A DNA stretch of 64,000 bases from the NCBI GenBank assembly GCA_030550555.1, contig JAUQPD010000037.1:1-64000 (forward strand), written 5' to 3'. The DNA is from Thermodesulfobacteriota bacterium. GTDB taxonomy: Bacteria > Desulfobacterota > Thermodesulfobacteria > Thermodesulfobacteriales > Thermodesulfobacteriaceae. This document shows, piece by piece, positions 5,225 through 52,568 of this stretch (within the stretch, counting starts at the first letter, position 1; each line of letters begins with the position of its first letter). The position numbers and the translations under genes were made by a program. The notes under the pieces were generated by a model that was given only the letters and a program-made list of their open reading frames with translations, ran no database searches and had not been told where the DNA came from.

Positions 5225-6015
5225 AGAGTATTTCCGTTGCTAGTGGCAAGGGTGGGGTAGGAAAGACGAGTTTTGTCATTAACCTTGCCCTTGCCCTTGA
5301 GGAACTAAATCAGAGAGTGCTCATATTTGATGCGGATTTGGGACTAGCAAATGTAGATATTATGCTGGGGCTGTCGCCCAAATTTGACATCCGTTATGTC
5401 TTTAGCGGACAGCTAACATTAAGTGATATCGTACTTAAGACAGAGTATGGGTTTTCTTTAATTCCAGCAGGCTCTGGTGTCAACGAGTTAACCCATTTAA
5501 CTACATCGCAAAAGCTTTTGCTTCGTGCCCAAATGGAAGAGGCCTTCAAGCCCTATGATTTTCTTATCTTTGATATCTCAGCAGGTATCTCAGACAATGT
5601 GCTTTTTTTTACCCAACTTGCAGAGGAAAAAATAGTTATTGTAACTCCTGAACCTACCTCTCTTGCAGACGCCTATGCTTACCTCAAGGTAGCCACTAAA
5701 CGGGCAAGACTTAAAGAATTTAATCTTGTAGTTAACATGGTCCGTGATGACCAGGAGGGAAAAAAGATATATCAACAACTTCTCTTTGTCTGTGAAAAGT
5801 TTCTTCCAGACCTTAAATTAGGACTTTTAGGAATACTTCCCTACGATGAGTGTGTAAAAAGGTCTATCAGATCTCAGATTCCCTATCTTAAACTCTGTCC
5901 AGACGCCAAAATTAGTGTTAAAATCAGAGAGATTGCTATGAAAATACTTCAGAGAAGAAATCTACGTAAGGACAAAGAGTTAGAGCAATTTTTAGAGCGT
6001 TTTACAAATTTGTAG
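5221..6015 (+). CDS. flhG: MinD-like ATPase FlhG (FleN/YlxH)
   Basis: FlhG is a MinD/ParA-type ATPase that stimulates FlhF and limits flagellar number. The deviant Walker A, GKGGVGKTS, lies at residues 9-17, with a Walker-A-prime DADLGLANVDIMLG typical of FlhG near residue 38. The 264-residue length is normal. It overlaps flhF by 4 bases and is followed 3 bases later by fliA, which is the standard flhF-flhG-fliA order. Confidence 0.95.
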   Translation: MKSISVASGKGGVGKTSFVINLALALEELNQRVLIFDADLGLANVDIMLGLSPKFDIRYVFSGQLTLSDIVLKTEYGFSLIPAGSGVNELTHLTTSQKLLLRAQMEEAFKPYDFLIFDISAGISDNVLFFTQLAEEKIVIVTPEPTSLADAYAYLKVATKRARLKEFNLVVNMVRDDQEGKKIYQQLLFVCEKFLPDLKLGLLGILPYDECVKRSIRSQIPYLKLCPDAKISVKIREIAMKILQRRNLRKDKELEQFLERFTNL

Positions 6016-36132: not shown

Positions 36133-37116
36133 GTGGAGAAGGTCATTTTAGTTGTTCATGGAAGTCCCAGGAAAGAGGCAAATAGGTGGGAGTACTTTCT
36201 TGGAGTTCTTGCTCATAAACTGGGTAGACCACTTGATCTCCTATCAATAGCATATCTTCAATTTGGATCTCCTAGCTTAGAAGAGGCCCTTGAAGAGGCA
36301 GTGAAAAGAGGCTTTACAAAAATTTTCGTTCACCCTTTCTTTCTAAGTGCAGGAAATCATGTAAAGGAGGATATACCTGAGATACTTAACAGGTTTCAAC
36401 AAAATAACCCAAATTTAGAAATTATTTACACTGCACCTCTTGGTTTTCATGAAAAACTTGCAGACATCGTAAGAGACCGCCTTGAGGAAGTCGGTTTTCT
36501 CAAAGCACAAGAGATTGAGAGAAGAAGTATGGAAATTATCAATAAAGAATTTGATTTATCGAAGTTTTCTCCTTTAGAAAGGAAAATTATTGAGAGAGTA
36601 CTACATGCAACAGCTGATCCCGAGTATTTGGAGACAATGGTATTTCATCCCCAGGCTATTGAGATGGCGATTAATAGTTTAAGGGGAGGAAGGGATATTC
36701 TTGTTGATGTGGAGATGGTTAAAGCAGGAGTAATAAAAAGATTTAACAGAAATAAGGTCCTTTGCTATTTATCCCATGTAGATGAAGAGGGAGAAGGAAC
36801 AAGGACAGAGAGGGCTATAGAGATGGCCCTTTCCAAGGAAACGAATATTGGTCTTGTTGCTATTGGGAATGCGCCAACTGCACTCCTAAAGGCTATAGAA
36901 ATTCTAAAAACTCAGGGAAGGCAAGATATAGTTGTTATTGGAATGCCTGTTGGCTTTGTCAGAGCCCTTGAGGCAAAACTTTTACTTTCAACTCAAGATT
37001 TTCCCTTTATTACCAATCTGAGTCGAAAAGGGGGAAGCCCAGCAACAGTAGCAGTAGTGAATGCCCTATTAAAGTTGGCTCATGAGCAAGAAGAATGGTC
37101 AAAAAACTTTACCTAA
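36133..37116 (+). CDS. CbiX-CbiC fusion: cobaltochelatase and cobalt-precorrin-8 methylmutase
   Basis: The first part (about 1-125) is a short CbiX-type sirohydrochlorin cobaltochelatase with VVHGSPRKEAN and HPFFLSAGNHV metal-site histidines. The second (about 135-327) is CbiC with the catalytic His in RVLHATADPEY and GNAPTALLKAIE, which moves a methyl group to give cobyrinate. Joined here are an early and a late step of one pathway. The start is GTG behind AAGGGAGG. Use of CbiX implies the anaerobic, early-cobalt route. It overlaps the next gene by 22 bases. Confidence 0.92.
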   Translation: MEKVILVVHGSPRKEANRWEYFLGVLAHKLGRPLDLLSIAYLQFGSPSLEEALEEAVKRGFTKIFVHPFFLSAGNHVKEDIPEILNRFQQNNPNLEIIYTAPLGFHEKLADIVRDRLEEVGFLKAQEIERRSMEIINKEFDLSKFSPLERKIIERVLHATADPEYLETMVFHPQAIEMAINSLRGGRDILVDVEMVKAGVIKRFNRNKVLCYLSHVDEEGEGTRTERAIEMALSKETNIGLVAIGNAPTALLKAIEILKTQGRQDIVVIGMPVGFVRALEAKLLLSTQDFPFITNLSRKGGSPATVAVVNALLKLAHEQEEWSKNFT

Positions 37117-37868
37117 TTGGAATAGGACCTGGTGATCCCAAATATTTAACTCTTGAAGCTTATGAACTGATTAAAAGATTAAAACTTTTTTTAGTTCCTG
37201 ACAAGCGAGAAGACAAAATAGGCCTTACTGAAATTAGACTAAAGGTTATTAATTTTGTCAAGGAGGGAAGTCCTTTTGAAGTTATATTCCTTAATTTTCC
37301 TGAAAGGAAAAAGGGGACTCATTATAGAGCTAAGGTTGAAGAGTGGAGGAAAGAAAAGGCCAAAATCCTCATTGATACCTTAAGAGAGCTTAATGAAGAG
37401 GAAGTTGGATTTCTCGTTATCGGAGATCCAGCTATATATGATGGCCATATTGAGATCTTTCACGAAGTTGAAAAGGTTCTCTCTCTTGAGTGGGAAGTTA
37501 TACCTGGGCTATCCTCATATCAGGTCCTTGCATCAAGAGAAAAACTGTCCCTCACCGAAATTGCCACTCCACTTCATTTCCATACCCCTCGCACCTTAAG
37601 GTCCTTAGAAACAATCACAGTGCCAACTGTTGTTTTTCTTGATAACTATGAAACCTTTAAAAAATTTAAAGAGGACACTTCCTTAAGCATCCATTGGGGT
37701 GCCTTTGTGGGATCTGAAAAAGAGGTCACCATCAGTGGAAAACTATCATCGGTATCTGACAAAATTTCCGGACTCAGACGAAGACTTAAAAAGGATCAAG
37801 GCTATCTTCTCGAGATCTACTACCTAAAACCCCAAAAAACTAATTTTTCCGATGAAAACAAAGCCTAA
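37095..37868 (+). CDS. cobF: CobF-family precorrin C-1 methyltransferase
   Basis: The 257 residues follow CobF (precorrin-6A synthase, deacetylating; C-1 methylation in the aerobic pathway) rather than CbiL or CbiF: GIGPGDPKYLTLEAYELI, VPDKREDKIGL, FLVIGDPAIYD, VIPGLSSYQVLA, then the CobF-type HWGAFVGSEKEVTISGKL and LLEIYYLKP end. The anaerobic pathway usually uses CbiD for this methylation, and no cbiD is visible here, so this protein may take its place. The substrate is inferred. It overlaps both neighbours. Confidence 0.82.
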   Translation: MVKKLYLIGIGPGDPKYLTLEAYELIKRLKLFLVPDKREDKIGLTEIRLKVINFVKEGSPFEVIFLNFPERKKGTHYRAKVEEWRKEKAKILIDTLRELNEEEVGFLVIGDPAIYDGHIEIFHEVEKVLSLEWEVIPGLSSYQVLASREKLSLTEIATPLHFHTPRTLRSLETITVPTVVFLDNYETFKKFKEDTSLSIHWGAFVGSEKEVTISGKLSSVSDKISGLRRRLKKDQGYLLEIYYLKPQKTNFSDENKA

Positions 37869-39090
37869 AATACATGTCTTTGGATTTGGTTTTAAACCTT
37901 TCAGACCTGATGAAATCACTCTATTGAAAAAACTTAGCCACATCATTCTCTTCAAAGGAGCATTTAAAGGTCTCTCCTCAAAGGAGATGTATCAGGATAT
38001 ACTGAGGGATATTAGTGAGAAAATCAGAGTTGTCGAAAATAAGACAGAATTTTTTAAAGAGCTGGAAAAGGTCTTATATGAGATGGGAGAAGGTGAGGTT
38101 GGAGTTCTTGCAACTGGCGATCCCTTAGTCTTTGGAATTGCAGTGGAGCTAAAAAAGTCCTTTTCGGAGGCAGAATTAGACATCCATCCTGATCTCTCTT
38201 CACTGCAGGTTCTCTGTGCAAAACTGGGGATTCCTTTTACAGAGGTCAAAGTTCTCTCTTTTCATGGAAGACCCAAAGTAAGAACTGTTCTTTTAGGAGA
38301 GGTCAGAGATAACCGATATTTAGCAATTTTTACAGATTATAGAAATACACCTAACCAAATAATAGAAACTCTTTTAGAAGCTAATTTAAAAGAAGTGAAG
38401 ATCTATGTAGGGGAGTGTCTTGGAACATTAGAAGAGAAGCTCCATCAGGGGTCTCCAGAAGTCATGATAGAGAGAACCTACAAGTATCCTAATTTAGTCC
38501 TGATTGAAAACCCCAATTGGGGTGAGAGGGCTATCTTGGGAAGAAGAGTTGAGGAATTTGAACATAGAGCTAACCTCATTACAAAGGATGAGGTGAGAGG
38601 GATTGTTTTACACAAGTTAGCACCTCCAATAAGGGGTGTTATTTGGGACATTGGAGCTGGATCAGGCTCAATTTCAGTAGAACTTGCCTCTCTTTCAAAG
38701 GACCTTCAGGTTTATGCAGTGGAAAAAAATTTAGAGCTTGTGCAGGTAATTGAGAAAAATAAAGAGAGATTTGCAGTTCCTAATTTAGAGATCCTTCATG
38801 GTGAGGCCCCTTTAGCTCTAAAAGAGCTTCCTAAGCCCGATAGAATTTTTATAGGTGGAAGCGGGGGAAAATTATTAGATATTCTTAAATATGTTTATGA
38901 AAAGGCATGTCCCAAAATTCTTGTAGCTACATTTGTAATTTTTAACCATCTACAACTTGCTGTGAAATATCTTGAAGATAAAAGTGAGCTTGAGCTCATT
39001 CAAGTCCAGGTAAATAGGGCAAGAGCTCTATCAAGGGACCTCTATTTTAAGGCAGAAAATCCTATTTTCATCCTAAAGGCAACCTTTTAA
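37852..39090 (+). CDS. cbiET: CbiE-CbiT fusion, cobalt-precorrin C5/C15 methyltransferase and decarboxylase
   Basis: The 412 residues combine CbiE (about 1-200; a tetrapyrrole methylase with GEVGVLATGDPLVFG and VLSFHGRP) and CbiT (about 230-412; a Rossmann methyltransferase with IWDIGAGSGSISVELA and RIFIGGSGG). The fusion equals CobL of the aerobic route and methylates C5 and C15 with decarboxylation at C12. It starts 17 bases before the cobF-like stop. Confidence 0.95.
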   Translation: MKTKPKIHVFGFGFKPFRPDEITLLKKLSHIILFKGAFKGLSSKEMYQDILRDISEKIRVVENKTEFFKELEKVLYEMGEGEVGVLATGDPLVFGIAVELKKSFSEAELDIHPDLSSLQVLCAKLGIPFTEVKVLSFHGRPKVRTVLLGEVRDNRYLAIFTDYRNTPNQIIETLLEANLKEVKIYVGECLGTLEEKLHQGSPEVMIERTYKYPNLVLIENPNWGERAILGRRVEEFEHRANLITKDEVRGIVLHKLAPPIRGVIWDIGAGSGSISVELASLSKDLQVYAVEKNLELVQVIEKNKERFAVPNLEILHGEAPLALKELPKPDRIFIGGSGGKLLDILKYVYEKACPKILVATFVIFNHLQLAVKYLEDKSELELIQVQVNRARALSRDLYFKAENPIFILKATF

Positions 39091-39114: not shown

Positions 39115-40428
39115 CTATATACTTAGTTCGTTACGACTCTCATCTTCATCAAGGTCAAAGGAAATTAGATGTATATATGTTCCTAAGGCTCGGTTTATGA
39201 GATAACCCTCTCTGTAAGATCTACCATAGAGATCTCTTACTTGATAGCATGTCGGAACATTTGAATCCTTATTCACAAGTGTTGTATAGTGAAATTCATG
39301 TCCTTTAAAGGTTGTCATACATTCAAAAAGGGGGAGATTTGTAGCTGGTTTTACTGCTCTATAGCCTAAGTTAAGTGAACCTTTTGCTACAGTGAAAGGA
39401 AATGTTCCAACCAGTTTAAAATTTTGGTGATTCCAACTTAGGGCATCACAGAGGTAGACAAAACCTCCACATTCAGCATACAGGGGCATCTTTGATTCAA
39501 CCCAATTTTTTATAGCCCGCAACATCTTTTTATTTTTCGCTAAGACTTCTCCAAAGAGTTCTGGATAGCCACCTCCAATGTAGAGAACCTCTGCCTCTTG
39601 TGGAAGCTCTTCATCCTCAAGAGGACTAAAAAAGATAAGTTTATATTTCTCTCTAAATTCATCTAAAATATGCTGGTAGTAAAAATTGAAGGCCCTATCA
39701 AAGGCAATAGCTATACTTTTGTAGGGAACATCAGGGAGAAACCTTGGTTTGGTGCCACCTTCAAACTCCTTTAGCCTAAGGTTTTCAAGTTGTTCATAGT
39801 TGAGATTTTCTTCTAACTTTTCTGCTACATAGTCGATGATCCTATTTGTTTCCGCAAGGTCCTGAGGTAAGAGGAGCCCCAAATGGCGAGACCCAATTTT
39901 TATTTTTTCATCTCGCATAAGGTATCCAAGAATTGGATATCCTCTCAGGGCCTTTTCAACTCTGAGGAGATGTCTTTTTGAAGAAATACGATTCAACATG
40001 ATGGCAAAAGGGAGCTCAGCTCTCTTTAAACGTTCAACTGTCCCCCTGATTAGAGGTCTTATACTCTCTGCAAGTCCGTAGGTATCAATAACAAGAACAA
40101 TCGGTATCTTCAAATACTTGGCAATAAGATAAGTAGAATATTTCCCATCAAAAAGCCCCATAACTCCTTCAACTATTACCAGCTCCTTCGCAGAACTCTT
40201 TGTGTAGAATAGCCTTTTTAACCTGTCTTTACCCATGGCAAAAAGGTCGAGATTGTAAGAAGGAACACCACCTGCAACTTGATGCCACATCGGATCAATA
40301 TAGTCAGGACCAATTTTAAAAGGTTGGACCCTTAAACCCTTTTTCTGAAAAAGTCGGAGAAGCCCAAGGGTGATTAAAGTTTTTCCCTCACCACTTCTTA
40401 AAGCAGACACTAAAAAGGCCTTAGCCAT
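39115..40428 (-). CDS. cbiA: Cobyrinate a,c-diamide synthase
   Basis: CbiA amidates the a and c side chains of cobyrinate using glutamine and ATP. The 437 residues have the N-terminal ATPase part (SALRSGEGKTLITLGLL, KIGPDYIDP, VEGVMGLFDG) and a C-terminal glutaminase with the nucleophile Cys in LYAECGGFVYL and a downstream HEFHYT. It overlaps the upstream cobD-like gene by 19 bases and ends the minus-strand cob run. Confidence 0.96.
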   Translation of the reverse strand: MAKAFLVSALRSGEGKTLITLGLLRLFQKKGLRVQPFKIGPDYIDPMWHQVAGGVPSYNLDLFAMGKDRLKRLFYTKSSAKELVIVEGVMGLFDGKYSTYLIAKYLKIPIVLVIDTYGLAESIRPLIRGTVERLKRAELPFAIMLNRISSKRHLLRVEKALRGYPILGYLMRDEKIKIGSRHLGLLLPQDLAETNRIIDYVAEKLEENLNYEQLENLRLKEFEGGTKPRFLPDVPYKSIAIAFDRAFNFYYQHILDEFREKYKLIFFSPLEDEELPQEAEVLYIGGGYPELFGEVLAKNKKMLRAIKNWVESKMPLYAECGGFVYLCDALSWNHQNFKLVGTFPFTVAKGSLNLGYRAVKPATNLPLFECMTTFKGHEFHYTTLVNKDSNVPTCYQVRDLYGRSYREGYLINRALGTYIHLISFDLDEDESRNELSI

Positions 40429-41477
40429 CGCACAAGAGCAGTCAAAAATCTATCATTAGCTTCACTTTCCTTGACTGAAACCCTCAAATAGTCTCCATTG
40501 AGCCCCTCAAAATTGGAACATGTACGTATGAGAATTCGCTCCTCTCTCAATAACCACTGCCAAAATTCTTCTCCCCTCTCAAGCCTAAAGAAAACAAAAT
40601 TCACAACTCCTATTCTATGCCAAATTCCTAAATCCTTAAAGGTCCTCTCAAATTTCTTTAACTCTTTTGAGAAAAAATCTAGTGAAATTTTTTTAAATAA
40701 CTGATTTTTCAGTAAAAAACTTGCAAAAACTTGAGAAAGGGTATTGACTTGCCAGGTAGTTTGGAACCTTTTTAATTTATGGATAATGTCTTCATTGGCG
40801 ATAAGGTAACCTATTCTTGTGCCTGCAAGTCCATAGAATTTGGTGAGGGATCTGAAAACAATGAGATTTGGAAGGGTAGGTGCGAGATGGGCAAGACTTT
40901 CTTCTTCACAGAAATCAATAAAGGCTTCATCAATCAGAAATAGCGTATGATGATTTTGATTTATTCTTTGGAGTAGATCAGACTTCTTTATGGTCCAGCA
41001 GGTAGGATTGTTGGGATTGCAGAGGATGACCACTTTGTTGGGATAATTTTTTTCAAGAAACTGATCAACCAAGTCCAATAGGTAAGAGGGATTAAGAGTG
41101 TATGGAGCTAAGACGAGGAGATCCTTTCTAAGGTTGAGAAATTTCCTATAGGCAGTGAAGGTTGGTTGGGGGAGAAGCACGGTTGCTCCTTTTGGCAAAA
41201 ACCAAAGTATCGCGTCTTTTATCAGTTCCATAGAGCCGTTAGCAAAGAGAATAGAGTTTCCCTCTGTCTGTAATTTTTCACAAAGAAGCTTCCTTAGTTC
41301 AGAACAATCAGGATCTGGATAGAACTGAATATAGAAATAGGGATCAGAGATAGCCTCTTTGAGAAAGTCCTTAGTGAGGGGGTTTACAGAGGCACTCATG
41401 TCAATAATTTCAAAGGGTTGAACATCGAGCCTATTTGCAAAGTAATAGATGTTTCCTCCGTGTTCTGGATAACTCAT
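40410..41477 (-). CDS. Threonine-phosphate decarboxylase-like PLP enzyme (CobD/CobC)
   Basis: The 355 residues are a fold type I PLP aminotransferase with PEHGGNIYYFA and MSASVNPL near the start, FANGSMELI, VILCNPNNPTCW, DEAFIDF and the PLP Lys in SLTKFYGLAGTRIGY. Between cbiA and cbiB it most likely makes (R)-1-aminopropan-2-ol phosphate for the nucleotide-loop linker. Histidinol-phosphate aminotransferase is the main alternative; gene context favours the cobalamin role. Confidence 0.85.
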   Translation of the reverse strand: MSYPEHGGNIYYFANRLDVQPFEIIDMSASVNPLTKDFLKEAISDPYFYIQFYPDPDCSELRKLLCEKLQTEGNSILFANGSMELIKDAILWFLPKGATVLLPQPTFTAYRKFLNLRKDLLVLAPYTLNPSYLLDLVDQFLEKNYPNKVVILCNPNNPTCWTIKKSDLLQRINQNHHTLFLIDEAFIDFCEEESLAHLAPTLPNLIVFRSLTKFYGLAGTRIGYLIANEDIIHKLKRFQTTWQVNTLSQVFASFLLKNQLFKKISLDFFSKELKKFERTFKDLGIWHRIGVVNFVFFRLERGEEFWQWLLREERILIRTCSNFEGLNGDYLRVSVKESEANDRFLTALVRWLRPF

Positions 41478-41486
41478 CTCTATTTC

Positions 41487-42482
41487 TTAAAATCCAAAAG
41501 TAAATAGCTTAAGCTTTAGTGAATTGACAATTGAGAGTATTATTACTCCTAGGAGACCGGCAAGAAAGAGGAGCTTGCGGGAGAAAGAGATAGCCATCTG
41601 AAGATCTGTACCTAAGTCCTCTCCGATGTAGGGTTTTATTATGAGTTTTCCTTCATAGTAGGCAGGACCAAGGAGCCTCACACCTAAGGCTCCAGCAAGG
41701 GCAGATTCAGGATAACCAGCATTTGGAGAGGGATGCTTGGGTGCGTAAGAGAGGATCCACTTTATAGCTCTTTTGGCAGAGGTTGCCCCAAGAAGAAGGA
41801 AAGTGGCAAGGACAATTAGAAGAGCTGAAAATCTTGCTGGTATGAGATTGAGAAGATCGTCCATCTTTGCAGAAAACCAACCAAAATGGAGATATTTTTC
41901 ATTCTTATAGCCAACCATAGAGTCAAGGGTATTTACAGTTTTATAGAATACAAGACCAGGGAAGCCGAAAAGGACAGCCCAAAATAGTGGTGCAATAAAG
42001 GCATCACTAAAATTTTCAGCATAACTCTCAAGAACACTTCTTTGAATATCTCTCTTGGAGAGAAGATCTCTATCTCGTCCAACAAGGGCAATTAGAGCTT
42101 CCCTTGCTGATTCTATATCACCACTTAGAAGTAATTTTTCAACCTCTTTCCCTGCGTCAAAAAGACCTTTTAGGGCTAAAAAGAGAGAGGTCAAGAAAAT
42201 CATCAAAACTTCACTGACCAAGGGTAAAGGAAACCATACCATAAATAGGTAGGTTACTACAAGTGCACAACAGGTAGTTACAGAAGTAACTCCAAAGAAG
42301 AAGAGTATTCCCTTAACTCTTTCAGAGATAGCTGGAAGGTTTCTAAATGGGGCCTCAAATGAAGAGATAATTAGGCCTATTCCTCTTATGGGGTGAGGTA
42401 ACCACACAGGATCTCCTAAAAGCTTATCAACAATAACCGCAAATATCAATATTAAGGTTGGAAGATGAAATAGTTTATCCAT
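41487..42482 (-). CDS. cbiB: Adenosylcobinamide-phosphate synthase CbiB
   Basis: CbiB joins aminopropanol (phosphate) to adenosylcobyric acid. The 331-residue membrane protein has five or so hydrophobic segments and the diagnostic KLLGDPVWLPHPIRGIG, SYAENFSDAFIAPLFW and HPSPNAGYPESALAGALGV motifs. It lies 6 bases after cbiP and 9 before the cobD-like gene on the minus strand. Confidence 0.96.
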   Translation of the reverse strand: MDKLFHLPTLILIFAVIVDKLLGDPVWLPHPIRGIGLIISSFEAPFRNLPAISERVKGILFFFGVTSVTTCCALVVTYLFMVWFPLPLVSEVLMIFLTSLFLALKGLFDAGKEVEKLLLSGDIESAREALIALVGRDRDLLSKRDIQRSVLESYAENFSDAFIAPLFWAVLFGFPGLVFYKTVNTLDSMVGYKNEKYLHFGWFSAKMDDLLNLIPARFSALLIVLATFLLLGATSAKRAIKWILSYAPKHPSPNAGYPESALAGALGVRLLGPAYYEGKLIIKPYIGEDLGTDLQMAISFSRKLLFLAGLLGVIILSIVNSLKLKLFTFGF

Positions 42483-42488
42483 AGAGCT

Positions 42489-43997
42489 TTATAGGTCGAG
42501 AATCTTCTCAATCCTCTTCATGTCAATATATTCCTCTAATTTTTGCGACAGTTTTTCTATGTTTCTGTCTAATCTTTTCCAATAGTTTTCAATAATAGGA
42601 AGTGGTTTTAGTCCTTTTCTCTCTCTCAAATAGTTGAGATAACTTCTTCTAAAGGCATCATTTGTAAAGAGTCCGTGAATATAGGTACCCCAGACTGGCC
42701 CCTTTCTCTGACCATCAAGAAGAATTTCTCCAGTTGAATATCTCCAAATTTCAAAAAGGTTCTTTGGAGAGAGAGTTATGCCTTTGTGAATTTCGTATCC
42801 CCAGAGTCTCTCTTTCTCAGAGCCTAAAACACCTTGTGAAAGAGGTCTTGCAAGTACCTGAGAGGTAATCTTTTCTGGAGAGAAGAGCGTTTCCCCCTCA
42901 AGAAGCCCCATGCCCTGAATCTCCCTGTCATGTCCCTCAATCCCTAAGGGATTCTTGAGTACTTCACCGAGCATTTGGTAACCCCCGCATATGCCCAAGA
43001 CTTCTGCTCCCTTTTTTATAGCTTCTTTTAAGACTTCAATTAAGCCTATGCTTTTCAACCACTTTAGGTCAGAAATTGTATTCTTACTTCCAGGAATTAT
43101 TATGAGGTCAGAGGAGATAAGGTCCTCTTTTCTAAAACTGAAGAGAATTTCAACATCCTCTTCCAGATAAAGAGGATCTATGTCTGCAAAATTAGAAATG
43201 TGCCTTAGAGGAAGAACAGCTATTCGGAGTTCTCCTTTTGCGTGCATCCTTTTAGTAATTTTGCCAAAAAAAGAAAAGCCATCCTCATCGGATATATAAA
43301 TGTCGTCCAAGTAGGGTAGGACTCCGAGACACTCTAAACCAGTAAGTTGCGATATATCTCTTATGCCTGGTTTAAGAATCTCAAGATCTCCCCTGAATTT
43401 ATTTATTACAAATCCTTTAAAAAGTTTTACGTAATTGGGAAGATAGTGTTCGAGAAGTTTAACTGTCCCATAGATACTGGCAAAGACCCCTCCTTTGTCA
43501 ATATCAGCAATTAAGATAATTGGACATTTCAAATGTAGAGCAGGAAGAATATTTACGAGATCTACTTTAAGGAGATTTATTTCTGCAGGACTTCCAGCAC
43601 CTTCACATATGAGAAGTTCAAAACGCTTACATAGATCCTCAAGGACTGTTCTAACCTCTTCCCAGAGAAGTTTTTTTTCCTTGTAATAGTCCTTTGCAGA
43701 GAGAGATTTGTAAAGTCTTCCTTTTAAAATTACTTGACATTTAGCATTTCCCTCAGGCTTAAGAAGTATAGGATTAAAACTACTCTCTGGTTCAATCTTA
43801 CAGGCAAAGGCCTGAAGAGCCTGAGCAAGACCAATCTCACTCCCATCTTTACAAACGAAACTCTGGAGACTCATATTCTGAGCCTTAAAAGGAGCTACCC
43901 TTATCCCCTTTTTGGTAAAGTATCTACATAAAGCAGTAACAAAAAGAGACTTACCTGCTGAAGAGGAAGTTCCTGTTACCAGAAGAGCCCTTGTCAT
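42489..43997 (-). CDS. cbiP: Cobyric acid synthase CbiP
   Basis: CbiP amidates side chains b, d, e and g of adenosylcobyrinate diamide. The 502 residues have GTSSSAGKSLFVTALCR, PFKAQNMSLQSFV, the IADIDKGGVFASI segment and a glutaminase half with the Cys in VLGICGGYQMLG and a closing YIHGLFTND. The ATG at 43997 overlaps the cobS stop (ATGA); a TTG five codons earlier is less likely. Length is normal. Confidence 0.97.
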   Translation of the reverse strand: MTRALLVTGTSSSAGKSLFVTALCRYFTKKGIRVAPFKAQNMSLQSFVCKDGSEIGLAQALQAFACKIEPESSFNPILLKPEGNAKCQVILKGRLYKSLSAKDYYKEKKLLWEEVRTVLEDLCKRFELLICEGAGSPAEINLLKVDLVNILPALHLKCPIILIADIDKGGVFASIYGTVKLLEHYLPNYVKLFKGFVINKFRGDLEILKPGIRDISQLTGLECLGVLPYLDDIYISDEDGFSFFGKITKRMHAKGELRIAVLPLRHISNFADIDPLYLEEDVEILFSFRKEDLISSDLIIIPGSKNTISDLKWLKSIGLIEVLKEAIKKGAEVLGICGGYQMLGEVLKNPLGIEGHDREIQGMGLLEGETLFSPEKITSQVLARPLSQGVLGSEKERLWGYEIHKGITLSPKNLFEIWRYSTGEILLDGQRKGPVWGTYIHGLFTNDAFRRSYLNYLRERKGLKPLPIIENYWKRLDRNIEKLSQKLEEYIDMKRIEKILDL

Positions 43998-44767
43998 ATA
44001 ATTGCCAAGCAAATAAGAGTTGTAAGCTCACTTATCTCAACAAGTGCCCCAAGGTTGTCCCCTGTTAACCCTCCAAAAGCGCGTTTAAAAAGTAAAGAGA
44101 AGTAGATCAATATAATAGAGTTTACACAAAGAAATAGAAAAATCTGCTTTGAGTTTAATAAATATAAATTGTTAAGGAAGTAACTCAAAAAAAGGATTGT
44201 GCTGATAAGGACGTGGAAAATAAGGATTTTTCTATCAAAGAGGGTAATCATTAGAAAACCAAGGCCCTCTTTACGAGCAGGTGTTGCAAGAAAAAGGACA
44301 AATCCGAGCAGAAATCGGGAAAGAAAAAAGGGGAGTACTAAGAGCTGTGGCTGATTTTTAGAGAGAATCTCTAAAAATAGGATGAATTTTGCAATTAAAA
44401 GAGTAGTAACAGCTGAAACTCCAGCAACACCAACAGTTGGATCTTTCATAATAGCAAGTCTCTTTTCCCTATCTGCTATGGAATCTCCTTTGCCTCTGTA
44501 AGAGAGGGCATCAAAGGTATCTGAGAGACCATCGAGATGAAAGATCCCACGCAGAAAAAAAAGGACTAAGAGGACAAAAAGGGCAATGACCTGAGGATTT
44601 ATCACTGAAAGTAAGAGTGAGCCCAGGGCACTAACAATTAGGCCCTCAAGAAAACCAACAAGAGAGAGGAAGGCTAAGGCATAACGAATCTCACCTTCTT
44701 CTTTTGGATATATACCAATTGGTAATCGCCAGAAGAAACTGAGGGCAAGCAGTGGATAACGCCACAT
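43994..44767 (-). CDS. cobS: Adenosylcobinamide-GDP ribazoletransferase
   Basis: CobS joins adenosylcobinamide-GDP with alpha-ribazole(-phosphate) to complete cobalamin. The 257-residue membrane protein has about six hydrophobic segments and the catalytic-site stretch FHLDGLSDTFDALSYRGKGD near residue 95, followed by MKDPTVGVAG. It starts directly after the cobT stop and overlaps cbiP by 4 bases. Confidence 0.95.
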   Translation of the reverse strand: MWRYPLLALSFFWRLPIGIYPKEEGEIRYALAFLSLVGFLEGLIVSALGSLLLSVINPQVIALFVLLVLFFLRGIFHLDGLSDTFDALSYRGKGDSIADREKRLAIMKDPTVGVAGVSAVTTLLIAKFILFLEILSKNQPQLLVLPFFLSRFLLGFVLFLATPARKEGLGFLMITLFDRKILIFHVLISTILFLSYFLNNLYLLNSKQIFLFLCVNSIILIYFSLLFKRAFGGLTGDNLGALVEISELTTLICLAII

Positions 44768-45832
44768 CTATTTATAGCGAGACTCAGATACACCAGCAGA
44801 TTCAAAGGTTGCCATCTCTTTGTAGATCTTTAAAGAAGCTTCAACAAGTAGCATAGCAAGGGCAGAGCCTGTCCCTTCACCAAGTCTTAGATTTAAATCA
44901 AGTAAGGGCCTCAGACCAAGATATCGAAGCTGTGCCCTATGGCCTATTTCCTCTGATCTATGAGAGGCAAAGACATAATGCCTGATCTCTGGATTAATCT
45001 GATAGGCGATGAGAACTCCTGCGGTAGTGATGAAGCCATCAGTGATCACAGGAATTCGTGCTTCTGCACAGGCAAGGACCACTCCTGCACAGGCGCCAAT
45101 TTCGGTTCCTCCAACTTTTGAAAGAACATCTATAGGATCCTTGGGGTCTGGATTGTGAAGTGCTAAGGCTTTCTTAATAACTGCAATTTTCCTTTTAAGG
45201 TCCTCTTCAGTAAGACCTGTCCCTCTACCAGTTACCTCTTCTACAGGTCGTCCTGTTATAACTGCAGTTATTGCAGAAGATGGGGTAGTATTTCCGATAC
45301 CCATATCCCCTATGCCAATAAGGTTGTATCCTTCTGAAATCGCAGATTTTGCACATTCATATCCAACTTCTATACTCCTTATCGCTTCTTCCCTAGTCAT
45401 TGCTGGTTCCTTGGCAAGATTTTTCGTCCCCCAACAGACTTTTTTACTTATGAGTCCAGGAAGATTTCCAAAATCATAATCAACTCCCACATCAACTACA
45501 CGAACATCCGCACCTGCATGTCTTGCTAATACATTTATCCCTGCACCACCTCTGAGAAAATTGAAAACCATCTGAGCAGTTACTTCCTTTGGATAGGCAG
45601 AAACTCCCTCTTCGACAACTCCGTGATCCCCTGCAAAGACAAAGATAAGCTTTCCTTTGATCTCTGGCATAGAGTTCTCATAAATAGCAACCAGTCTACT
45701 TGCAATTTCTTCAAGAATTCCAAGACTTCCAATAGGCTTTGTAAGACTATCAAGCCTCTTTTTTGCAATATCAAAGAAAACTTCGTTTAGTGGTTTAATA
45801 GTGAACTTACTTAGATCAAAGACAGTATTCAT
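44768..45832 (-). CDS. cobT: Nicotinate-nucleotide--dimethylbenzimidazole phosphoribosyltransferase
   Basis: CobT activates the lower-ligand base (such as dimethylbenzimidazole) as alpha-ribazole phosphate. The 354 residues show [49 protein letters not shown] and the C-terminal [13 protein letters not shown]. It is the first gene of the minus-strand cob run. GAGGGGG lies before its ATG, with a candidate promoter at 45871-45897. No genes for making the base are visible. Confidence 0.97.
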
Positions 45833-46000: not shown

Positions 46001-47662
46001 GTGAAAAAGAAACTCCTCATTGTTGAGTCCCCAACAAAGATTACTACCATTAAAAGGCTTCTCAAAAATAGGGATGGAGAATTTATTTTTATGGCAACTC
46101 TTGGTCACATTATGGATCTCCCAGAAAAGTCCTTAGGCATTGACCTTAAGACCTTTGAACCAAATCTCCAGGTTCTTCCAAAAAAAAGAGGGCTTTTAAA
46201 AAAAGCGGAAGAACTTTTAAAGGTCGCAAAAGAGGTCTATCTTGCTACAGATCCAGATAGAGAAGGAGAAGCAATAAGTTTTCATCTGAAACAATATCTC
46301 TCAAGATACAATAGAGGCGTTCGTTTTATAAGACTTGCTCTTCTTGAAATCACCGAGCATGGCCTCAAAGAAGCCCTAAAAAGCCGAAGAGATGTAGATG
46401 AAATGCTATATCGATCTTGGAAGGCAAGAAGAGTTCTTGATAGGCTCATTGGGTACAGCCTCTCCCCTTATCTTTCTAAACTCTTTCAAAAACCACTTTC
46501 TGCTGGAAGAGTGCAAACACCTGCTCTGAGACTTATAGTAGAGAGAGAAGAGGAGATAGAAAATTTTATTCCCCAAGTATCTTACTCCCTTGCAGTCAAA
46601 GCCAAAACAAAAGATGGGAACTTAATTGTTTTGGATCTCTATAAGAAAAATAAGCTATTTAAGACGAGTAATAAAGAAAGTTTATTAGAATTTTATAATA
46701 AGTATTTGATCAAACGGAATATTTTGTTAAAAGATGTTTTTAGGAAGCTTCGCAAGAGACAGCCTCCTTTACCGCTAAAGACAAGTTCTATGATTGAGAT
46801 TTCTGGACGCATTCTTGGTCTTAGTCCTAAGCAGACGATGCGGATTGCACAAGACCTCTATGAGGAGGGATATATAACCTATATGAGGACTGATTCTGTT
46901 CGGGTGAGTGAGTTTGCGAAAAAAAGTGCGAAGGCTTATATTGAAAAAAACTTTGGAAAAGAATACTTGGGAAGGGAAAGAAGAAGGAGAGAGGGAAAGT
47001 TAGTGCAGGGTGCTCATGAATGTATTCGACCAACTTCAGTTGAAAGAGAAGTTGTAGGAATTTCTCCTCTTCATCAGAGGCTTTACAGCCTTATAAGAAC
47101 CTATTTTCTTACTTCTTTTATGAGTGACGCTGAGTTTCTAGAACAAAGCTTTAGATTTACCACTGAAGGTCTTCCTGAAGAGTATTTCCTACAGACAAAG
47201 GAAAAAAGACTTGTTTTTGATGGATTTTTGCGTTTAATGGGTCTTGCAGAAGAAGAGGAAGAAGAAGAGGATCTTAAAACATTTATAACACCTGATGAGC
47301 CCTTGAGAATTGAGGATTTTCAGGTGGTTGAACATCGCACAAATCCCCCTGAGAGATATACTCCACATAGCCTTATTAAAAAACTTGAATCCTTGGGAAT
47401 TGGAAGACCCTCAACGTTCCCGCAAATAGTGGAAAATCTCTTAAAAAGAGGGTATGTTGTGATGGAGGGTAAATATCTCAAGCCAACTGATCTTGGAAGA
47501 GAGGTTTGTAAAGAGCTCTTAAAGAAGGCTCCACTCTTTTTAGACTACTCCTTTACATCTCAAATGGAAAGAGCTCTTGATGAGATTGTGGAAGCACAGA
47601 GAGACTACTTTAAGACAATAGAGGACTATTATAAAGTTCTTAAGCAGGTGCTTTCTTCATGA
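46001..47662 (+). CDS. topA: DNA topoisomerase I, short form without zinc fingers
   Basis: This type IA topoisomerase relaxes negative supercoils. From GTG 46001 it has 553 residues: the TOPRIM domain with LIVESPTK and ATDPDREGEAIS, and the catalytic Tyr Y294 in GYITYMRTDS, then SYTS-type core motifs (GIGRPSTFPQIV). The C-terminal zinc-finger domains of typical TopA are absent. A GTG at 45983 lies inside the predicted -10 and is unlikely. The stop overlaps the cbiL start (ATGA), tying topA to the cobalamin genes. Confidence 0.95.
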   Translation: MKKKLLIVESPTKITTIKRLLKNRDGEFIFMATLGHIMDLPEKSLGIDLKTFEPNLQVLPKKRGLLKKAEELLKVAKEVYLATDPDREGEAISFHLKQYLSRYNRGVRFIRLALLEITEHGLKEALKSRRDVDEMLYRSWKARRVLDRLIGYSLSPYLSKLFQKPLSAGRVQTPALRLIVEREEEIENFIPQVSYSLAVKAKTKDGNLIVLDLYKKNKLFKTSNKESLLEFYNKYLIKRNILLKDVFRKLRKRQPPLPLKTSSMIEISGRILGLSPKQTMRIAQDLYEEGYITYMRTDSVRVSEFAKKSAKAYIEKNFGKEYLGRERRRREGKLVQGAHECIRPTSVEREVVGISPLHQRLYSLIRTYFLTSFMSDAEFLEQSFRFTTEGLPEEYFLQTKEKRLVFDGFLRLMGLAEEEEEEEDLKTFITPDEPLRIEDFQVVEHRTNPPERYTPHSLIKKLESLGIGRPSTFPQIVENLLKRGYVVMEGKYLKPTDLGREVCKELLKKAPLFLDYSFTSQMERALDEIVEAQRDYFKTIEDYYKVLKQVLSS

Positions 47663-48345
47663 GACTTAGAGTAATTGGGGTTGGCCCTGGTGACCCTGGT
47701 CTCATAACCTTAAAAGGTTATCAACTGATAAATAGCTCAAGGCTTGTCTTTTATCCAACTGGAGGTAAGGATGCCCTTGCCCTATCTATTGTCAAGAGAC
47801 TACTCCCTCTTGATGATAAGGAATTAGTGGAGCTACACTTTCCTATGAAAAAGGGCTCATTAAAGGAGCACTGGACAGGTCTTGTCTCCTTGATAATTGA
47901 ATACCTCCAGAAATATGTAGAGGGAGTTTTTATCACCTTAGGAGATCCTGCTTACTATTGCACTTTTTACTATCTGTTTCCCTATCTCGTTGAAAGAGGT
48001 GTAGAGATAAAATTTATACCTGGAATTAGCTCCTTCTCTGCTGGCTCTTCTCTTTTTTCCATCCCCTTAGCATTGGGCGAAGATATAGTGGCAGTTGTTC
48101 CTGGAGAACGCTTTAAAAGAGAGTGGGAGAGATTACAATTCTTTGATACCATAGTTGTTTTAAAGGCAAAAAACTATCTCAGAGAGATTGTTGATACCGC
48201 AAAGCTCAAAGGATTCAAGGTCTATGTGGGATATCGTATAACCCAAGAGGATGAAGTGTTACTCTCAGACATTGAAAATTTCTCAGTTGATGAGAAAGTA
48301 GAGCACTTTGACTATTTTACTCTTACAATACTTAGAAGAGGTTAA
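47659..48345 (+). CDS. cbiL: Cobalt-factor II / precorrin-2 C20-methyltransferase
   Basis: The 228-residue tetrapyrrole methylase has GVGPGDPGLITLKGYQLI, VFYPTGGKDALA, the HWTG segment and ITLGDPAYYCTFYYL, as in CbiL/CobI, which methylates C20. It overlaps the topA stop by 4 bases. It is distinct from the cobF-like and cbiF genes in the same cluster, which all share the methylase fold. Confidence 0.92.
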   Translation: MRLRVIGVGPGDPGLITLKGYQLINSSRLVFYPTGGKDALALSIVKRLLPLDDKELVELHFPMKKGSLKEHWTGLVSLIIEYLQKYVEGVFITLGDPAYYCTFYYLFPYLVERGVEIKFIPGISSFSAGSSLFSIPLALGEDIVAVVPGERFKREWERLQFFDTIVVLKAKNYLREIVDTAKLKGFKVYVGYRITQEDEVLLSDIENFSVDEKVEHFDYFTLTILRRG

Positions 48346-48349
48346 AAGG

Positions 48350-49093
48350 ATGCAGAAGGTATATTTTGTAGGTATAGGCCCTGGGGATCCTGAATTTCTC
48401 ACACTCAAGGCTCTAAAAGTGATAAAGGAAGCTGATGTCATTATCTATCCAGGAAGTCTTATTAGTGATGAAATGCTTGTTTTTCTAAAAGGGGAAAATC
48501 GTCACGCAGAGTTTTTAGATGCCTACGGAAGGAAACTTGAGGATATCACTGGTTGGATTGAACAAGCCCTAATTCAGGGCAAAAAAACAGTGAGGCTCTT
48601 TAGTGGAGATCCCTCTATCTTTTCGTCTCTTATGGAACATATAGAGGTTTTCAGAGAAAAGGGTATAAGTTATGAAGTTATTCCTGGTGTCTCTTCTGCC
48701 TTTGCTGGAGCATCAAGACTTGCTCTTGAATTTACCTATCCAGATCTCTCAAATGCAGTTATTCTTACAAGAATTGAGGGTAAAACTGGTGGCGCAAGTG
48801 AAGAAGAAATTCTTGCCTACGCTAAGACCAATTCTACTCTCGTCTTCTTTCTCTCAGCCCAATACGGTGAAAAGCTCTCAACTATACTGAGGAAAGCCCT
48901 TCCAAAAGATACAAAAGTTGCCATTCTCTCGAACCTAACAAGAAAGAACGAACAAATTTTTCTCACCACCCTTGAAGAACTATCTCAAAAACTTAAAGAG
49001 GAAAAAATAACAAAGACCGCATTAATAGTCGTAGGAAAGGTATTAGACCTTTTAGAAAAAAATTTTTACAAAAGATCAATACTTTATGGCTAA
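48350..49093 (+). CDS. cbiF: Cobalt-precorrin-4 C11-methyltransferase
   Basis: CbiF/CobM methylates C11. From ATG 48350, 4 bases after cbiL and behind AAGAGG, it has 247 residues with GIGPGDPEFLTLKALKVI, VIYPGSLI, VRLFSGDPSIFSSL and VIPGVSSAFAGAS. These are the standard CbiF segments. A start 42 bases upstream is less likely. It overlaps the next gene by 8 bases. Confidence 0.95.
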   Translation: MQKVYFVGIGPGDPEFLTLKALKVIKEADVIIYPGSLISDEMLVFLKGENRHAEFLDAYGRKLEDITGWIEQALIQGKKTVRLFSGDPSIFSSLMEHIEVFREKGISYEVIPGVSSAFAGASRLALEFTYPDLSNAVILTRIEGKTGGASEEEILAYAKTNSTLVFFLSAQYGEKLSTILRKALPKDTKVAILSNLTRKNEQIFLTTLEELSQKLKEEKITKTALIVVGKVLDLLEKNFYKRSILYG

Positions 49094-50843
49094 ATATAAA
49101 GAAATTGTCATATTTTATTTATCAGAAGAGGCAAGGGATCTTATAAAAAGGATTAGTGCATATTATGGAAGGGCCAAAGTTGAGTGTTTACGGGGAGAGG
49201 TAGCTACTCAAAGGATTATGCCATATTGGCAGGAGGGGAATTTGCTCATTTTTGTCATGGCTCTTGGAGTGGTTGTTAGAGTGTGTGCTCCTCTTGTCTC
49301 AACAAAGGAGAGGGATCCTGGTGTTTTGGTTATTGATGAAATAGGAAGGAATATAATTCCTTTTCTTGGTGGACACTATGCAGAAGTCAATTGCACAGCA
49401 AGAGAGCTTGCTCAAGTTTTGGGAGCAAATCCAGTGATAACTACTTCTTCTGATCTAAGAGGACTTCCAGGTCTTGATCTTTGGATCAAAAAGAGAAGGT
49501 TTGTGCTAAAAGATAGGGCTCTTCTTCCCTCACTTATGGCAAGGATCAATAGGGGTGAAACTTTAACTGTTTTTGCAGAAAAGGACCTAAATGTCTCTAT
49601 ACCACATTTTCTAAAACCTGTTGATAACCCAAATGAGGCTGATATTGTCATAACTTACAAAAAAAGAGAAGCCCCAAATGGACTCTTGTTAATACCGAGA
49701 AAGATCTGGCTTGGAGTCGGGTTCCATGAGAATCTGAAAGAGGAGGACTTTGAAAATACCCTCTTAGCCTTCGTAGAAAGCCAACAACTAGAGTGGTCAT
49801 CAATAAAGGGGATAGCAACTTTAAAGAAAAAAACTAACTATACACCTCTTATAAATTTCTGTTTAAAACATAAACTCAAATTGATAGGGTTTGATCACTA
49901 TGAGCTTTCAAAAATAGAAACCTTTAGTTGTTCAGAAATTGTAAAAAAATTATTTAATGTAGGAAGTATTTGTGAGGGATCAGCTCTACTTGCAAGTAGG
50001 GGTGGAAGGTTACTTATTCCGAAAACTGTTTTTAGGGATATGACTGTTGCGGTAGCGATTGAAGGGGAAGAGCCTGGCAAGGTTTATGTTGTGGGGATTG
50101 GACCAGGACATCATAAATTACTAACCTTGAGAGCTATTGAGGTCCTTCAAGAGGTAGATGTAATTGTAGGCTATAAGAGTTATCTTAGACGCATTGAACC
50201 CTTCCTTATTGGAAAAGAGGTTTATGCCTATTCAATGAGAGAGGAACTTGATAGGGTGAAGAAAGCCATTGAAAGTGCCCTTCAGGGGAAGGATACTGCA
50301 CTTGTAAGTGGAGGAGATCCAGGGATCTATGGCATGGCAGGGCTCCTCATAGAGGTTCTTGCCCATAATAATCTCTATCTCGATATTGAGATTGTTCCTG
50401 GTGTTTCTGCTTTAAATGCTTGTAATGCCCTTCTTGGAGCACCCTTAGCAAATGACTTTGTAGTGATCAGCCTTTCAGATAGATTAACACCTTGGGAAAT
50501 TATAGAGAGAAGACTTGAGGAGATTGCAAGGACTGATTTGCCACTTGTTCTTTTCAATCCCCGAAGTTCTGGTAGAAAATGGCAGTTTAAAAGAGCCCTT
50601 GAAATTATTAGAAAACATAGATCATCATCAACCCCTGTTGGCATTGTAACTTCTGCCTATCAAGAGGGAGAAAGAGTTATGGTTGTAACTCTTGGAGTTT
50701 TACCAGAAGAGATGGTGAATATGCAAAGTCTTGTAATAATTGGCTCAGAAGCAACTTCAAAATGGGGACCCTACATTTTTTCCAGAAGAGGATATGACAA
50801 AAAATATCCAGAAAATTATGAAATCAGCCTTACTTCTAACTGA
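49086..50843 (+). CDS. CbiG-CbiH fusion: cobalt-precorrin-5A hydrolase and C17-methyltransferase
   Basis: The 585 residues join CbiG (about 1-325), which opens the ring lactone and releases acetaldehyde, with CbiH (about 332-575), which methylates C17 and contracts the ring. CbiG shows ALGVVVRVCAPLVSTKERDPGVLVID and GGHYAEVN; CbiH shows VVGIGPGHHKLLTLRA, VSGGDPGIYGMAG and LFNPRSSGRKWQ. CbiG is specific to the anaerobic pathway. The end overlaps the GATase-like gene. Confidence 0.93.
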   Translation: MAKYKEIVIFYLSEEARDLIKRISAYYGRAKVECLRGEVATQRIMPYWQEGNLLIFVMALGVVVRVCAPLVSTKERDPGVLVIDEIGRNIIPFLGGHYAEVNCTARELAQVLGANPVITTSSDLRGLPGLDLWIKKRRFVLKDRALLPSLMARINRGETLTVFAEKDLNVSIPHFLKPVDNPNEADIVITYKKREAPNGLLLIPRKIWLGVGFHENLKEEDFENTLLAFVESQQLEWSSIKGIATLKKKTNYTPLINFCLKHKLKLIGFDHYELSKIETFSCSEIVKKLFNVGSICEGSALLASRGGRLLIPKTVFRDMTVAVAIEGEEPGKVYVVGIGPGHHKLLTLRAIEVLQEVDVIVGYKSYLRRIEPFLIGKEVYAYSMREELDRVKKAIESALQGKDTALVSGGDPGIYGMAGLLIEVLAHNNLYLDIEIVPGVSALNACNALLGAPLANDFVVISLSDRLTPWEIIERRLEEIARTDLPLVLFNPRSSGRKWQFKRALEIIRKHRSSSTPVGIVTSAYQEGERVMVVTLGVLPEEMVNMQSLVIIGSEATSKWGPYIFSRRGYDKKYPENYEISLTSN

Positions 50844-52026
50844 TTCACATCTATGGGGAATTTGGTGTTATCGAGCTCTTAAAAGGGTAGGTCTCTTTTT
50901 TGAGCCTGTTCTTGCTAAAGAGTTGAGTGAAGAATACCTAGGGAGTTTTAAGGCTCTATTTGTCCCTGGAGGCTGGTCTAGAAACAAGTTAGAGTCGCTT
51001 GGCGATGAGGGAAAGAGAGTAATCAGAGCCTTTGTGGAAAATGGAGGAATTTATATAGGAATCTGCGGTGGTGCAAGCCTTGCAGGCCTTGATGGGCTCT
51101 CAATAAGTCCGGTTCGGAGAAAAAAAGATAGAGTTCCAAGCTATAGTGGTCCTTGTAGAGTTAAATTTCTCTCAAAGGAAGCCCTTCTAAAAGGAATAGC
51201 TCAACCGATTTTTTATCTCTGGTTTCCTCCAGAAATTGAGATTGTAGATGGTAATGCACAAAATAGTGCTGACATAATTGCCATTTTTGAAGCACCTCTT
51301 AAAGAAGCCTACACCTCTGATCTATGTCTGGAAGACTACGAGTGTGACTTAGCACACATTGAAAAGCTCTATAATTTACCCCTTGATCCAAACAGAATGC
51401 AGGCTAAACCCTTAATATTCGAGTCTCTTTTTGGAAAAGGGAAGGCCTTTATCTCGCTAATCCACTTTGATACACCTAATTGCCCTGCAGGACTTAAGTT
51501 TCTTGAAAACCTTGCAGAGCTATATGAGCTTCCTAGACAGACTTATAGTGAGCCTAAGATCTTTTCCCTGCCTCAAAGGTCTATTAACCTCATAGAAAAA
51601 GCAGTTTCTCACATGAAACAAATGGTAGACTCTCTTCTTGAGTTTGGTATGAGAAATTTTCTTTTTCATAGAAGATATCCCTTTTTTATACAGTGGAAAA
51701 GAGGAATAAGAGGTCTTGAACTTTTAAACCTGCAATACGCTTTTGAGGAGTTGGAATCTCTTATTTGCTCAGGGAGAGCATCCTCTGAAACTCTACAAAG
51801 AGTAGGGGAGCAAATCTTAGAATTAGAGGAAGACCTAATGCAGGTCCTTAAGACTTTAAAAAAAAGTTATATTTTAAAACGTTTTAATGTAGATGATCCT
51901 CTTTACTCTGAGGAAGAAACGAGGATTTTTGGCGAGAACTTAAAGAGTTATGGAGGACTCTATAGAGAATTAATAAATAAACTTGAGAGGATTCTCTGCT
52001 ATCTTTGGAGAGAGGAGAAATGTTGA
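50794..52026 (+). CDS. Uncharacterised glutamine-amidotransferase-like protein in cobalamin cluster
   Basis: The N-terminal part (to about residue 230) resembles the biotin-protein-ligase N-terminal/class I GATase-like fold: FVPGGWSRNKLESL and the nucleophile elbow IYIGICGGASLAG with its Cys. The rest (about 270-410) is helical and unknown. The start may be ATG 50794 or ATG 50818, both within the cbiG-cbiH end. It lies between cbiG-cbiH and cobU, so a cobalamin link (amidation, or a missing step) is possible but not shown. No catalytic His/Glu partners were identified. Confidence 0.65.
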   Translation: MTKNIQKIMKSALLLTDSHLWGIWCYRALKRVGLFFEPVLAKELSEEYLGSFKALFVPGGWSRNKLESLGDEGKRVIRAFVENGGIYIGICGGASLAGLDGLSISPVRRKKDRVPSYSGPCRVKFLSKEALLKGIAQPIFYLWFPPEIEIVDGNAQNSADIIAIFEAPLKEAYTSDLCLEDYECDLAHIEKLYNLPLDPNRMQAKPLIFESLFGKGKAFISLIHFDTPNCPAGLKFLENLAELYELPRQTYSEPKIFSLPQRSINLIEKAVSHMKQMVDSLLEFGMRNFLFHRRYPFFIQWKRGIRGLELLNLQYAFEELESLICSGRASSETLQRVGEQILELEEDLMQVLKTLKKSYILKRFNVDDPLYSEEETRIFGENLKSYGGLYRELINKLERILCYLWREEKC

Positions 52027-52568
52027 CCCTTGTCATAGGTGGCACTAGGAGTGGCAAAAGTAGGTGGGCTCTCAGTTATGCAGAGGGCCTTAATAACTTT
52101 AGTAAATACTATTACATTGCAACTGCAATACCCTTTGATGAGGAAATGAAGGATCGAATTGAAAGACATAGAAAAGACAGAAATCCCAAATGGTTAGTTA
52201 TCGAAGAGCCCACAAACTTGCCTGAGAGACTTTCAAAGATTGATGCCAACAATTGTGTCATTCTAATTGATTGTCTTACCCTTTGGCTCTCTAATCTAAT
52301 TTACTATAAAAAATCAGTTGAGACCTATAGAGAACTGCTGTTACAAAAGCTTGAAATTTTTCGCGAACATGAAAGATCCTGGTTAATCATAGTTACAAAT
52401 GAAGTTGGACTAGGAATAGTTCCAGAAAGCCAAATCGGACGCTACTTTAGAGATGAAGCTGGAATCTTAAATCAGAGTATTGCTGAGATAGCTGATGAAG
52501 TCTTCTTTATTATAGCAGGACTACCTCTTCAACTAAAGGGTAGACCAGTTGAACCTTATCTCAGCTAA
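52020..52568 (+). CDS. cobU: Adenosylcobinamide kinase / guanylyltransferase
   Basis: CobU/CobP phosphorylates adenosylcobinamide and transfers GMP to it. The 182 residues have the P-loop IGGTRSGKSRWAL near residue 5, the ERHRKDRNPKW guanylyl site with the reacting His, LIDCLTLWLSNL and VTNEVGLGIVPE. The ATG at 52020 has GGAGAGAGGAG upstream and overlaps the preceding stop. It overlaps the SfsA gene by 20 bases. Confidence 0.96.
   Translation: MLTLVIGGTRSGKSRWALSYAEGLNNFSKYYYIATAIPFDEEMKDRIERHRKDRNPKWLVIEEPTNLPERLSKIDANNCVILIDCLTLWLSNLIYYKKSVETYRELLLQKLEIFREHERSWLIIVTNEVGLGIVPESQIGRYFRDEAGILNQSIAEIADEVFFIIAGLPLQLKGRPVEPYLS

Follow-up and report, generated by a model that had tools for sequence, protein, structure and literature searches.

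In the anaerobic pathway to cobalamin (vitamin B12), cobalt-precorrin-5A loses acetaldehyde through CbiG before CbiD adds a methyl group at C-1; in the aerobic pathway the C-1 methyltransferase is CobF, and the extruded carbon is lost in its reaction (PMC7242693). The textbook split sets an aerobic route with CobF against an anaerobic route with CbiD and CbiG, and genome surveys use both as markers. The delta-proteobacteria have been stated to have CbiD/CbiG instead of CobG/CobF, and to be mostly without cbiJ (PMC545781). Shelton and co-workers point out that the two pathways cannot be told apart by gene content (PMC6461909), and the paper on SeepSRB2 and Eth-SRB1 describes an anaerobic corrin pathway, whose C-1 enzyme goes unnamed in the main text (PMC10553843). 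A search of the open-access literature yielded no account of CobF standing in for CbiD in anaerobic clusters. Here, a stretch of 64,000 nucleotides from a Thermodesulfobacteriota bacterium (the window; assembly GCA_030550555.1, contig JAUQPD010000037.1, positions 1 to 64,000) was analysed, in which a cobF gene at 37095–37868 lies in a cobalt-early B12 cluster. To judge from sequence and gene context, CobF of an anaerobic clade has very probably replaced CbiD in this pathway and would methylate C-1 of cobalt-precorrin-5B after CbiG has acted.

The gene encodes a genuine member of the CobF family, as the initial annotation had read it. The protein scores 196.5 bits against NCBIfam TIGR02434 (cut-off 195.8), and the runner-up family, cobI_cbiL (TIGR01467), follows at 76 bits, against a cut-off of 163. 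In a phmmer search of the PDB, the best matches are the CobF structures 2npn of Corynebacterium diphtheriae (C. diphtheriae; E 4e-33) and 3nd1 of Rhodobacter capsulatus (R. capsulatus; E 1e-27), with CbiL far behind (E 9e-7). The AlphaFold2 model, which has a predicted local distance difference test score (pLDDT) of 90.9, is nearest to 3nd1 with a template modelling (TM) score of 0.85 (E 2e-22), followed by 2npn, and CbiL reaches a TM score of 0.67. Finally, the tree splits 48 CobF rows, the window protein included, from two CbiL rows with support of 100/100. Assignment of the gene to CbiL or CbiE instead is rejected by the hidden Markov model (HMM), the fold and the tree, and the window holds a separate cbiL.

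The initial annotation had seen no cbiD in the window, and this extends to the whole assembly. The source genome belongs to Caldimicrobium (Thermodesulfobacteriaceae), a heat-loving anaerobe, comprises 1.71 Mb and is rated 100% complete; PF01888, the CbiD family, has no match anywhere in it. The same search detects CbiD at more than 300 bits in family-mates, and the genera g3, g4 and g5 of the family have it at up to 326 bits. One might suppose that a CbiD is present and was missed, either in a gap of an assembly that comes in 58 contigs or through extreme divergence, with CobF serving in some other role. This is strongly disfavoured and, in our estimate, extremely improbable. The closed genome G001 from this genus, a single contig, shows the same cluster with CobF and likewise no CbiD; an assembly gap is therefore not the cause. 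None was found in the CobF genomes of genus g1 (Caldimicrobium) or in three genomes of genus g6, which include Thermodesulfobacterium hydrogeniphilum (L061). Furthermore, the position of cbiD is taken by cobF, and none of the 12 Nitrospirota genomes with CobF has CbiD, as explained below.

The genes around cobF are those of the cobalt-early pathway: by profile matches, CbiX/K, CbiL, CbiH, CbiF, CbiG, CbiE, CbiT and CbiC are all present in the window, and CbiD and CbiJ are the only corrin-ring steps of that pathway without a gene here. CbiX, CbiG and CbiH had been named before and each is present; CbiX is not a stand-alone protein, however, and forms the N-terminal half of a CbiX-CbiC fusion. 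CobG was not found over cut-off in any anaerobe with CobF and CbiG, the source genome included, and the two aerobic controls were positive. These results bear on the possibility that the pathway is of the oxygen type, with late cobalt insertion and CobF in its ordinary job, which we consider very unlikely. What speaks for it is a CobN-like protein of 1327 residues in the source genome (contig C28, 8842–12168), with 373 and 312 bits against a cut-off of 822, and the situation in T. hydrogeniphilum described next. Against it stand the lack of CobG, the CbiX and CbiG of the cluster, and the finding that anaerobic controls, Methanocaldococcus among them, have CobN homologues too. The contig C28 protein is probably another metal or tetrapyrrole chelatase-like protein.

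In T. hydrogeniphilum (G017), a CobN over cut-off is encoded on contig C7 (147172–150846), just upstream of the B12 cluster (L052). Here, CbiC is not fused to CbiX and no CbiX is visible, which suggests that another chelatase may insert cobalt in this organism.

CbiJ/CobK (PF02571), which the initial annotation had proposed looking for genome-wide, is absent from the source genome. Among 119 relatives, just 2 have a match above its cut-off, and roughly half of the 119 possess the rest of the pathway. The absence is lineage-wide, and therefore the precorrin-6A reductase of this phylum should be a protein other than CbiJ/CobK. It is not decisive for pathway type because it is a known gap in delta-proteobacteria (PMC545781), and it does not bear on the exchange of CobF and CbiD.

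Within the family, CobF occupies the slot of cbiD. Family-mates with CbiD (L055, L056) have the order CbiC-CbiD-CbiET-CbiF-CbiGH, and those with CobF (L053, L054) have CbiXC-CobF-CbiET-CbiL-CbiF-CbiGH; in T. hydrogeniphilum the order is CbiC-CobF-CbiET-CbiL-CbiF-CbiGH. The window CobF likewise sits with CbiG, CbiET, CbiF and CbiH in a cobalt-early cluster, the location expected of a CbiD function. The layout with CobF in the cluster is seen again in the Nitrospirota, where the clearest natural comparison of CobF and CbiD operons is found. Here, genome G127 (L108, L175) with CobF and genome G235 (L189) with CbiD share the identical order methyltransferase-CbiET-CbiL-CbiF-CbiGH-next open reading frame (ORF). 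Their neighbouring proteins are 89% (CbiH), 86% (CbiF), 81% (CbiG) and 78% (CbiT) identical, and it is the C-1 enzyme that differs.

CobF and CbiD are mutually exclusive in two phyla. In a sample of 246 genomes from the phylum of G127, the Nitrospirota, CobF occurs in 12, all of which have CbiG and none of which has CbiD, while CbiD is present in 87 of 94 CbiG genomes without CobF (Fisher p 2.3e-11, a value that is indicative only, as the genomes are related and not independent, so that Fisher p values overstate significance). In the set of relatives, which includes the window genome, CbiG is present in 11/11 CobF genomes and CbiD in one of them, against 46/49 of the other CbiG genomes. Among further genomes with CobF in clusters of the anaerobic type (Nitrospirota, SeepSRB2, Eth-SRB1 and others), nine of ten are without any CbiD, and the tenth (L074) has a mere fragment of it, described below. 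In the phylum of Eth-SRB1 CobF is rare (6/394 genomes).

Further support for replacement came from the phylogeny. The 20 CobFs of anaerobic clusters form one group, with support of 100/100, apart from 27 CobFs of aerobic lineages. When the CobF/CbiD state is placed on a tree of concatenated CbiF, CbiG, CbiH and CbiT from 57 loci, eight changes are counted, at least six of which are forced by supported branches. One anaerobic CobF clade and at least six state changes among the pathway proteins imply that cobF moved horizontally, as a lone gene, into clusters that already existed. Consistent with this, the CobF of L074, a deltaproteobacterial metagenome-assembled genome (MAG) from Guaymas, is 86% identical to that of the Thermodesulfovibrionia genome L067, against 39–48% identity for the four remaining proteins. 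The tree places the anaerobic clade inside aerobic CobF; because a single clade of aerobic CobF is compatible with the approximately unbiased (AU) test (p 0.265), no direction of change, that is, no aerobic origin, is claimed.

L074 also holds what appears to be a fossil of the exchange. Its sole CbiD match is an ORF of 81 codons (5070–5315), which covers positions 1–54 of the 254 of PF01888 at 39 bits and lies about 210 nucleotides upstream of cobF (start at 5528). This 5' remnant lacks the conserved TTGxCA cysteine, and the rest of CbiD was not found on the contig fragment; coming from a single MAG, it needs confirmation. With the cbiD slot, the exclusion in two phyla, the repeated swaps and this remnant, the suggestion of the initial annotation that CobF replaces CbiD as a non-orthologous enzyme is supported. 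The phylogeny and structure prediction that it had called for likewise place the protein in CobF.

The proposed mechanism follows the anaerobic route up to the C-1 step. CbiX would insert cobalt, and CbiL, CbiH and CbiF would make cobalt-precorrin-5A with its ring-A lactone, which CbiG would open with release of acetaldehyde. CobF would then take over the step normally carried out by CbiD: with S-adenosylmethionine as methyl donor, it would methylate C-1 of cobalt-precorrin-5B to yield cobalt-precorrin-6A. There would no longer be any need for the half of the classical CobF reaction that removes the acetyl group. As sister operons pair the same CbiG-CbiH with either CbiD or CobF, the substrate that is handed over should be the same. 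Given this and the retention of CbiG, cobalt-precorrin-5B is the most straightforward candidate for the substrate of CobF.

The anaerobic clade carries a signature directly after the GDP loop. Aerobic CobFs have YDST or YDGT here (once YDSA), while the anaerobic clade has YDGH, as part of GDPxxYDGH. In a scan of 80 loci of the collection, GH was present in 12 of 13 anaerobic-cluster loci (the remaining one has GQ) and in 0 of 67 others, and eight further Nitrospirota CobF sequences all have GH. The GDP loop of this enzyme family lines the substrate trough, and it is therefore plausible that the change to GH alters substrate contact. We lean towards the view that the YDGH clade is a single-function cobalt-precorrin-5B C-1 methyltransferase that arose once, lost its dependence on an acetyl leaving group and spread singly among anaerobic bacteria of at least two phyla, displacing CbiD several times; the Gly-His pair would fit the pocket to a substrate that contains cobalt and has already lost the acetyl group.

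Several points weigh against replacement of CbiD as set out above, in addition to the relatedness of the sampled genomes. The window CobF lies just 0.7 bit above the TIGR02434 cut-off; scores elsewhere in its clade run from 208 to 315 bits, and the small margin is explained by the divergence of the Caldimicrobium branch. One genome, G054, has a full CbiD cluster plus a CobF elsewhere, outside the B12 cluster and outside the anaerobic clade; this isolated CobF (C1:1940896–1941639, L049) is of the YDGT type. Ten CbiG genomes have neither CbiD nor CobF (G078, G045, G116, G134, G135, G145, G301, G330, G347 and G372), reflecting either incomplete assembly or a third C-1 methyltransferase. Lastly, the motif SGHxGGAN, conserved in CbiG elsewhere, is changed to GGHxxxxN in the Thermodesulfobacteriaceae and, in part, in two Nitrospirota with related clusters, with the His and Asn retained. 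The loci concerned are the window CbiG and L051–L054, L058, L059, L166 and L168. Given the altered motif, the reaction of CbiG in the Thermodesulfobacteriaceae may differ.

This last point leads to the possibility that CobF keeps its whole classical reaction. Here, the enzyme would act on cobalt-precorrin-5A, or on an opened, still acylated intermediate, and remove the two-carbon unit during C-1 methylation, with CbiG only opening the lactone or being partly redundant. Besides the altered CbiG motif, this is favoured by the fact that most residues invariant in aerobic CobF are also kept in the anaerobic clade. However, no CobF genome in either sample lacks CbiG, and the most conserved charged and polar residues of CbiG are intact (R75, K84, D87, H107, N112, E307 and K323 are unchanged in 24/24 CobF-partnered proteins). 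Established chemistry has acetaldehyde leaving via CbiG before C-1 is methylated (PMC7242693), and in sister operons either C-1 enzyme is found alongside the same CbiG-CbiH. Retention of the classical reaction is thus judged unlikely, and methylation of cobalt-precorrin-5B is preferred.

CobF could also be a relic, in a cell that makes 1-desmethyl corrinoids or has another C-1 enzyme. Engineered Escherichia coli (E. coli) without CbiD forms 1-desmethyl corrinoids, going by the title of Roessner 2005 as cited in PMC7242693 and PMC3621897, which makes such a cell conceivable. However, CobF is intact and conserved, keeps the conserved residues of its family and overlaps its neighbour genes in several lineages, so that we give this explanation very little credence.

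The features of the window are collected in the table below.

Features of the cobalamin cluster in the 64,000-nucleotide window (positions are those of the window)
Feature	Position	Strand	Evidence
cbiX-cbiC fusion, early cobalt chelatase and cobalt-precorrin-8 methylmutase	36133..37116	+	Pfam PF01903 residues 9-114, PF02570 residues 127-314
cobF (anaerobic clade), proposed cobalt-precorrin-5B C-1 methyltransferase in the place of CbiD	37095..37868	+	TIGR02434, fold, tree
codons for G117-H118 of the clade-diagnostic GDPxxYD-GH motif	37443..37448	+	alignment signature
cbiE-cbiT fusion, cobalt-precorrin-7 C-5 and precorrin-6B C-15 methyltransferases	37852..39090	+	TIGR02467 122 bits, TIGR02469 114 bits
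cbiA/cobB, cobyrinic acid a,c-diamide synthase	39115..40428	-	NF002204 402 bits
cobD/cobC-type aminotransferase (threonine-phosphate decarboxylase)	40410..41477	-	PF00155; function from context
cbiB, adenosylcobinamide-phosphate synthase	41487..42482	-	PF03186 307 bits
cbiP/cobQ, cobyric acid synthase	42489..44012	-	NF001989 559 bits
cobS, cobalamin-5-phosphate synthase	43994..44767	-	PF02654
cobT, dimethylbenzimidazole (DMB) phosphoribosyltransferase	44768..45832	-	PF02277 471 bits
cbiL, cobalt-factor II C-20 methyltransferase, separate from cobF	47659..48345	+	best NCBIfam TIGR01467 163.1 bits, cut-off 163.25
cbiF, cobalt-precorrin-4 C-11 methyltransferase	48308..49093	+	best NCBIfam TIGR01465 216.8 bits, below cut-off 259.65
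cbiG-cbiH fusion, cobalt-precorrin-5A hydrolase (acetaldehyde release) and C-17 methyltransferase	49086..50843	+	PF11760, PF01890; TIGR01466 292 bits
cobU, cobinamide kinase / guanylyltransferase	52005..52568	+	PF02283 189 bits

The cobF ORF encodes 257 residues from an ATG start and overlaps cbiX-cbiC by 22 nucleotides and cbiE-cbiT by 17 nucleotides. Its GC content is 37.9%, with neighbouring genes at 38–39%, so that base composition says nothing for or against a recent transfer. No Rfam match to a B12 riboswitch was found in the window at the gathering threshold. The ORF at 50740–52026 has a short match to a biotin-ligase N-terminal-like domain (PF09825, BPL_N-like) and no NCBIfam match, and it is kept directly 3' of CbiGH in CobF and CbiD operons of two phyla. 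It is a candidate for a B12 step without an assigned gene. A role as a CobF-specific partner was rejected because it also follows CbiGH in the CbiD operons L188 and L189.

If the proposed role is correct, the textbook split would be broken by a clade of CobFs that act after CbiG in the absence of oxygen, and two unrelated C-1 methyltransferases would be interchangeable modules. Such a clade would also allow a direct test of whether an acetyl leaving group or a metal-free ring is required by CobF. In practice, annotation that demands CbiD, or that reads CobF as a marker of the oxygen pathway, may score these anaerobes as incapable of making B12 or as aerobic producers.

The closest known system is aerobic CobF (precorrin-6A synthase, TIGR02434; 3nd1 and 2npn), with which the anaerobic CobF shares its family, its fold and conserved core residues; C-1 is presumed to be methylated in both. 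The anaerobic enzymes differ in forming a separate, fully supported clade with GDPxxYDGH in place of YDST/YDGT, and in residing in cobalt-early clusters that include CbiX and CbiG but no CobG. In addition, their proposed substrate would hold cobalt and would already lack the two-carbon unit. CbiD (PF01888) has the same operon slot, the same partner genes and, as proposed, the same step; the two are, however, unrelated protein families that are mutually exclusive. An exchange in the opposite direction, CbiD for CobF in aerobic gene sets, has been suggested for Streptomyces and the Methylobacterium plasmid pCMU01 (PMC3621897). That too is a non-orthologous exchange at the same step, there put forward as a suggestion; the CbiD concerned belongs to a gene set of the oxygen-dependent type.

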